64,000 nt of DNA from Chrysogorgia sp. JL179-B06 (lineage: Eukaryota > Cnidaria > Anthozoa > Scleralcyonacea > Chrysogorgiidae): assembly GCA_035772405.1 (NCBI GenBank), contig JAYKKM010000351.1:2215001-2279000 (forward strand). The letters are read 5' to 3'. The notes under the pieces were generated by a model that ran no database searches, was not told the origin of the DNA, and saw nothing but the letters and a program-made list of their open reading frames with translations. Shown here in pieces: positions 36,813-37,672 of the stretch; the stretch's first letter is position 1; the number at the start of each line of letters is the position of its first letter. The position numbers and the translations under genes were made by a program.

Positions 36813-36914
36813 AAAAACCATCAAGAATGTAAAAGTCTATAACAACTCAGTGTGCATTGCGCACTTTTACTTGCTGAAATGACAAAACATAATTGCAGTG
36901 TCTGGCTATCATGA

Positions 36915-36966
36915 GCAACTGTGGACAGCTGTTTCGCTCTCTTGGAGCTCGTCAGCACAGTGTAGC
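36915..36966 (-). ncRNA. Hammerhead ribozyme, array copy 1
   Basis: Minus strand. Core CTGACGA, stem II GCTC/GAGC, GAAAC, stem III from self-complementary ACAGCTGT, cleavage triplet GTC. Stem I pairs CACTGTG before the core with CACAGTTG after the cleavage site. All invariant positions are present, so predicted active. Confidence 0.8.
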
Positions 36967-37151
36967 TGATGATAAGCCAGCACATCAAAAAGGTATATAC
37001 ATCATCACAGTCAAAAGACTTGATGTGGGTATACCACACTGCATAACTTATAAACCATCAAGAATGTAAAAGTCTATAACAACTCAGTGTGCATTGCGCA
37101 CTTTTACTGGCTGAAATGACAAAACATAATTGCAGTGTCTGGCTATCATGA

Positions 37152-37203
37152 GCAACTGTGGACAGCTGTTTCGCTCTCTTGGAGCTCGTAAGCACAGTGT
37201 AGC
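37152..37203 (-). ncRNA. Hammerhead ribozyme, array copy 2, core mutated
   Basis: Identical to copy 1 except that the core reads CTTACGA instead of CTGACGA: the invariant G5 is T. Predicted to be inactive or nearly so. Confidence 0.75.
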
Positions 37204-37389
37204 TGATGATAAGCCAGCACATCAAAAAGGTATATACATCATCACAGTCAAAAGACTTTATGTGGGATATACCACACTGCATAAATTATAAACCATCAAG
37301 AATGTAAAAGTCTATAACAACTCAGTGTGCATTGCGCACTTTTACTGGCTGAAATGACAAAACATAATTGCAGTGTCTGGCTATCATGA

Positions 37390-37441
37390 GCAACTGTGGA
37401 CAGCTGTTTCGCTCTCTTGGAGCTCGTCAGCACAGTGTAGC
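37390..37441 (-). ncRNA. Hammerhead ribozyme, array copy 3
   Basis: Same core and stems as copy 1, all invariant bases present. Predicted active. Confidence 0.8.
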
Positions 37442-37627
37442 TGATGATAAACCAGTACATCAAAAAAGTATATACATCATCACAGTCAAAATACTTGATG
37501 TGGGATATACCACACTGCATAAATTATAAACCATCAAGAATGTAAAAGTCTATAACAACTCAGTGTGCATTGCGCACTTTTACTGGCTGAAATGACAAAA
37601 CATAATTGCAGTGTCTGGCTATCATGA

Positions 37628-37672
37628 GCAACTGTGGACAGCTGTTTCGCTCTCTTGGAGCTCGTCAGCACA
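37628..37672 (-). ncRNA. Hammerhead ribozyme, array copy 4, stem I truncated
   Basis: Catalytic core CTGACGA and GAAAC are intact, but the 5' strand of stem I is replaced by unrelated flank (TTGTG instead of CACTGTG) at the array edge. Cleavage would be weakened. Confidence 0.7.

Follow-up and report, generated by a model that had tools for sequence, protein, structure and literature searches.

The window analysed here, a stretch of 64,000 nucleotides from Chrysogorgia sp. JL179-B06, contains on its minus strand a head-to-tail array of short repeats (36815..37675), each with a hammerhead ribozyme motif, one of which has lost an invariant base. What kind of element left this array behind, and how would its RNA be cut? 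Tandem Repeats Finder reported a period of 238 over 36815-37672 (3.6 copies, 98% matches), and alignment gave a unit length of 237/238 bp, with three essentially complete units, a partial fourth unit showing homology up to 37675, and a copy 1 that is about one base short at its 3' end. The tandem hammerhead array of 237- to 238-bp direct repeats proposed in the original prediction was thus recovered, as 3.6 copies. In the RNA, the order of the units is 5'-copy 4-copy 3-copy 2-copy 1-3', followed by a (TA)n tract of 138 bp (36676..36813, delimited by Tandem Repeats Finder and by its sequence) that adjoins the 3' end of the array.

The unit has a GC content of 0.40, and when folded as a circle, each of three units was more stable than its dinucleotide shuffles (z scores of -2.64, -3.24, and -4.25; 100 shuffles each). 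A blastn search with the unit revealed no second locus above chance elsewhere in the 64-kb window, and the array had no blastn match in phage records, a collection not expected to hold animal DNA. No LTR was seen in the array and, by eye, no target-site duplication in its flanks, the right one of which is not TA. The unit has no open frame of more than 78 codons and no reverse transcriptase or GIY-YIG domain, and its single Pfam match is sub-threshold (13.3 versus a cut-off of 27 bits). A coding role for a 75-codon open frame in the unit was rejected, as a frame of that length was equalled in 85 of 500 shuffles and was without a relative in a protein search.

On the minus strand, every copy contains a type I hammerhead with the elements CUGACGA (CUUACGA in copy 2), GAAAC, AGCU, and GUC. 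Stem II consists of 4 bp (GCUC/GAGC, with loop CAAGA), and stem III is made up of A15.1-U16.1, one C-G pair, and the AGCU loop, which together form the palindrome ACAGCUGU. The core is intact in three of the four copies: copy 1 (36902..36980; predicted cleavage after 36924), copy 3 (37377..37455; predicted cleavage after 37399), and copy 4 (37615..37674; predicted cleavage after 37637). The Rfam hammerhead models named as a check in the original prediction do match these three, with RF00163 scores of 32.1 bits for copies 1 and 3 (E = 4.5e-4 over the whole window) and 30.1 bits for copy 4 (E = 2.1e-3). Since all three of these scores fall short of the RF00163 gathering score of 34, a default Rfam scan reports none of them. 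Copy 2 (37139..37217) matches only RF02275, and weakly so (25.8 bits, E = 0.039); as had been claimed, its invariant G5 is altered, with U at 37190, and the cleavage-site base, 37161, is intact. Copy 4 had been described as lacking half of stem I. Indeed, it breaks inside that stem and has lost both the outer helix and the internal loop, but the inner stem of 6 bp is kept, one of its pairs being U.G. A strict motif search of the window yielded four matches, namely, three array copies and a locus at 3266; 100 first-order Markov resamples contained no match. The hammerhead-core pattern had no match in viral contigs or in prokaryote genome contigs, neither of which is expected to hold animal DNA.

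Beyond the break, the 5' flank (37676..37701, minus strand) contains two TGACGTCA words (37674-37701) that could form a hairpin. This flank weakly and collinearly resembles the unit and may be a diverged extension of it that has lost about 20 nt; the best ungapped match, of 26 nt, is in the expected order. Its score was equalled or beaten by 34 of 1,946 stretches of the window, or by 61 of 1,946 with looser scoring (54 of 2,000 stretches with TA runs had been dropped, and the array and its flanks were excluded).

The copies differ from one another at nine interior sites, plus one at the break of copy 4; two interior sites and the one at the break are covered by all four copies. Because two-state differences are always private when there are three full copies, these differences cannot tell whether the array originated in one event, and we dropped their privacy, being unavoidable, as proof of a single insertion. 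They favor neither a satellite nor a retrozyme origin. The hammerhead core has 13 invariant bases. If nine differences were placed at random across the array, at least one would fall on one of four such 13-nucleotide cores with a probability of 0.43, so that the dead copy 2 needs no special explanation; its loss of G5 looks like ordinary decay or a copying error. The claim that the pattern of live and dead sites is unusual was therefore not supported, chance placement being sufficient, and a designed pattern was rejected as needless.

On the basis of these features, we consider it likely that the array goes back to a single insertion event, that of an animal non-LTR retrozyme. For such elements, PMC7229834 gives units of 150 to 450 bp with a GC content below 45 to 50%, and it describes units of 220 to 240 bp in Acropora millepora, arranged as dimers to 62-mers. 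The array resembles the retrozymes described there for A. millepora and Mytilus in size, low GC content, tandem arrangement, hammerhead type (type I), and circular fold, and since coral units of this size are already in print, it most likely belongs to a known kind of element. The label "retrozyme-like" in the original prediction holds for each of these five properties. According to the same source, target-site duplications of animal non-LTR retrozymes are longer than 4 bp when present and are sometimes absent.

An array of this kind might have been formed in several steps. A unit would have been transcribed, and its RNA would have cleaved itself and been circularized by a tRNA-type ligase of the host. 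A reverse transcriptase from an autonomous element, perhaps a Penelope-like one, would then have copied the circle several times round into AT-rich target DNA. The outcome would be a head-to-tail array, truncated at its 5' end and anchored with its 3' end on the TA tract, in which copy 2 would have lost its own catalytic half, by mutation or copying error, and kept its cleavage site. A Pfam scan of 29 of the 110 open reading frames listed for the window detected no Penelope reverse transcriptase. In a Penelope-like system studied in vitro, insertion still took place with hammerhead mutants, and the main substrate was taken to be unprocessed RNA (PMC11167929), an argument against the idea that Penelope insertion requires cut RNA or circles.

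As for transcription, the array is probably embedded, in the sense orientation, in a CARD-gene intron (23901..42778, minus strand), although this gene model is an inferred one and may have further internal exons. A CARD-domain exon on the minus strand (Pfam E = 9e-16), with CARD11 and CARD9 as its nearest solved relatives, has a GTAAGT donor at its end, so that the intron would run from 42778, and a large minus-strand open reading frame has a CAG acceptor, with its exon starting from 23900. The phases of donor and acceptor match, a coincidence expected one time in three. Past the acceptor, the large frame is coiled-coil-like, its matches being weak and unspecific only. Should both parts belong to one CARD-coiled-coil gene, a pathway treated, including its cnidarian members, in PMC5978004, read-through transcription would yield cleavable RNA. 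Read-through is also what published models assume, as no promoter is seen in retrozymes (PMC7761336).

Several other features were noted in the window. An open reading frame at 39623 has 3,560 relatives, the best match being 66% identical; among the 120 listed, the few that carry species names are from a sea anemone (Exaiptasia), corals (Oculina and Montipora), and two fishes, and the best match is not among these. Another, at 48410, has 19 relatives, a single one of which carries a species name, that of the octocoral Paramuricea clavata. Such relatives are in keeping with a cnidarian host. A long transposase frame (11508-13043, plus strand; Pfam DDE_Tnp_1_7, E = 7.6e-69) is, we presume, of the piggyBac type. 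At 44745-47062 (plus strand), a tandem repeat of about 932 bp is present in 2.5 copies that are 99.7% identical. Finally, a tRNA-Ala-derived repeat forms a head-to-tail dimer at 35104-35653 (plus strand; period of 279 bp, 99%) with TA tracts on both flanks, and related copies were found near 48.1 kb and 16.6 kb.

The array is not the only hammerhead-like locus next to TA-rich DNA. The match at 3266 lies in an insert of about 150 bp (3221-3375, minus strand; motif search and Rfam) that has a palindromic stem III, ACACGUGU, and is bordered by two TA tracts, one of 216 bp and the other of 33 bp; its hammerhead scored 21.1 bits with RF02275 (E = 0.013 in a search of 621 bases) and was unlisted up to an E value of 0.5 window-wide. 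Two copies of a minimal hammerhead-like motif, at 38809 (38795-38885, plus strand) and 51059 (about 50984-51070, minus strand), lack a stem III loop and have a common 3' end. The first ends inside a TA tract and the second on TATATAT; stem I is weak, with four and two pairs, respectively, by eye, and neither had an Rfam listing up to an E value of 0.5. Minimal hammerheads of this sort have been described for Penelope-like elements (PMC7761336), and by analogy, both motifs are probably of the Penelope type. The Penelope-type motif had no match in viral contigs, a collection not expected to hold animal DNA. Two further motifs, at 59126 and 63676, are weaker, with a 3-bp stem II and GAAAG instead of GAAAC, and were excluded from the junction counts given below. 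They lie in the arms of a large inverted repeat (58758-63981; arms 93 to 98.5% identical), each of which contains 80-bp minisatellites.

For three of the four hammerhead-like loci, the end is no more than 1 base away from a TA tract of at least 24 bp (2.8e-7 if placement is random and independent), a figure that is partly circular, since the end of the 3266 insert was defined by the TA tract itself. The fair count is therefore two (5e-5) of the three loci with ends placed by sequence homology, namely, the array and the loci at 38.8 and 51 kb, and it should be read with the knowledge that the pattern had been spotted prior to its statistical test. At the level of titles and abstracts, we found no literature tying hammerhead elements to TA tracts, and we do not claim that there is none. 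AT-rich DNA is the preferred cutting target of a Penelope-like enzyme in vitro, but this enzyme starts copying at a site that lacks homology to the cut DNA, and hammerhead cleavage is dispensable (PMC11167929). We tentatively raise the rather doubtful idea that, in this genome, retrozymes integrate in the same way as Penelope-type hammerhead elements, i.e., by insertion into TA tracts with an anchored 3' end.

The TA tracts may also be viewed not as targets but as the outgrowth of short TA tails that the insertions had left behind, which is quite possible, if not our expectation, and would make the shared junction uninformative as to the machinery. Tail growth is in line with the 51-kb locus, one of the four hammerhead-like loci, which ends on TATATAT only, and with the tRNA-derived repeats: two of the three aligned loci end in TA-rich DNA, and our motif searches found no hammerhead there. 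However, TA tracts lie on both sides of two hammerhead-like inserts, as predicted by insertion into an existing tract.

How would the array RNA be cut? The predicted cuts, after 37637, 37399, 37161, and 36924, are spaced by 238, 238, and 237 nt, and the distance from 37399 to 36924, skipping copy 2, is 475 nt. With its palindromic and very short stem III, the array ribozyme might also pair up with a second one, and the ribozymes probably act, at least partly, as double hammerheads. From the strand topology, we deduce that each strand of such a pair would supply the catalytic bases for the cleavage site of its partner. Copy 2 could then still be cut by a partner, yet would be unable to cut that partner in return, and the 475-nt product need not dominate. 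The dimer of about 475 nt put forward in the original prediction would thus be expected if each hammerhead acts alone but not if a partner cuts copy 2. If copy 4, which by its sequence has an intact core and a stem I of 6 bp, also cuts, a 238-nt unit would appear beside the 475-nt product.

In an energy model that leaves tertiary contacts out of account, the double hammerhead was favored over two single ones for both copy 1 (-69.5 versus -53.6 kcal/mol) and copy 3 (-64.3 versus -48.4 kcal/mol). Since the model is blind to G5, the energies of copy 2 equal those of copy 1. For copy 4, the homodimer was unfavorable (-26.9 versus -35.4 kcal/mol for two singles). When copies 1 and 3 are folded singly, the structure of lowest energy is not the hammerhead but one that is 5.9 kcal/mol more stable; likewise, the unconstrained two-strand minimum is another structure (-71.3 kcal/mol for copy 1 and -66.1 kcal/mol for copy 3), 1.8 kcal/mol under the double hammerhead.

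Alternatively, the hammerheads might act only singly, in which case the array RNA would mostly be a 475-nt dimer, with or without the 238-nt unit from copy 4. This we regard as possible, if on the doubtful side. In copies 1 and 3, the core is intact and stem I carries an internal loop, which is said to enable monomeric cutting by newt hammerheads (PMC6155905), and efficient cutting has been reported for the hammerheads of most invertebrate retrozymes (PMC7229834). The stem III of the array, on the other hand, with one C-G pair beside A15.1-U16.1 and the palindromic AGCU loop, is of a kind that is weak as a monomer in axolotl: in that species, hammerheads with a one-pair stem III and a palindromic tetraloop are poor cutters on their own and improve when they dimerize (PMC7229834). 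For newt hammerheads, cutting has been reported in both modes, single and double (PMC6155905). By description, the array ribozymes are like those of newt satellite 2 and axolotl HHR_Amex1 in their very short stem III with a palindromic tetraloop (PMC7229834, PMC6155905) and in their extended, internally looped stem I; the unit is 238 bp long, versus approximately 330 bp in those elements. In its stem III, the array differs from most invertebrate retrozymes, the weak palindromic kind being ascribed to amphibians in PMC7229834.

Least probable among the alternatives is a local satellite, generated from a single old sequence with a hammerhead through unequal crossing-over and now silent, with no recent retrotransposition: the single locus in 64 kb and the commonness of unrelated tandem arrays in the window agree with it, but the 3' end on a TA tract, the break within the fourth ribozyme, and the intact core in three of four copies do not. 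Two other known classes were rejected. The array is like the minimal hammerheads of Penelope-like elements (PMC7761336, PMC11167929) in being of type I and in its tandem habit, but it has an extended stem I and a noncoding unit of 238 bp; with no reverse transcriptase in that unit and no GIY-YIG domain, the latter typical of canonical Penelope-like elements, it is not one of them. Nor is it an LTR retrozyme of the plant kind, in which LTRs of about 350 bp carry a type III hammerhead and the duplication is of 4 bp, the array being of type I and in short tandem units.

Taken as a retrozyme insertion, the array provides, through its G5-to-U copy, a natural experiment on single versus double cutting, in which fragment size tells the modes apart: 475 nt if the hammerheads act singly, and 238 and 237 nt if a partner cuts the dead copy. 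Also at stake is the mobilizer of animal retrozymes, for which Penelope-like elements are named only as a strong candidate in PMC7229834. The habit of inserting into TA tracts, if truly shared, would be sequence evidence that Penelope-like machinery mobilizes animal retrozymes.
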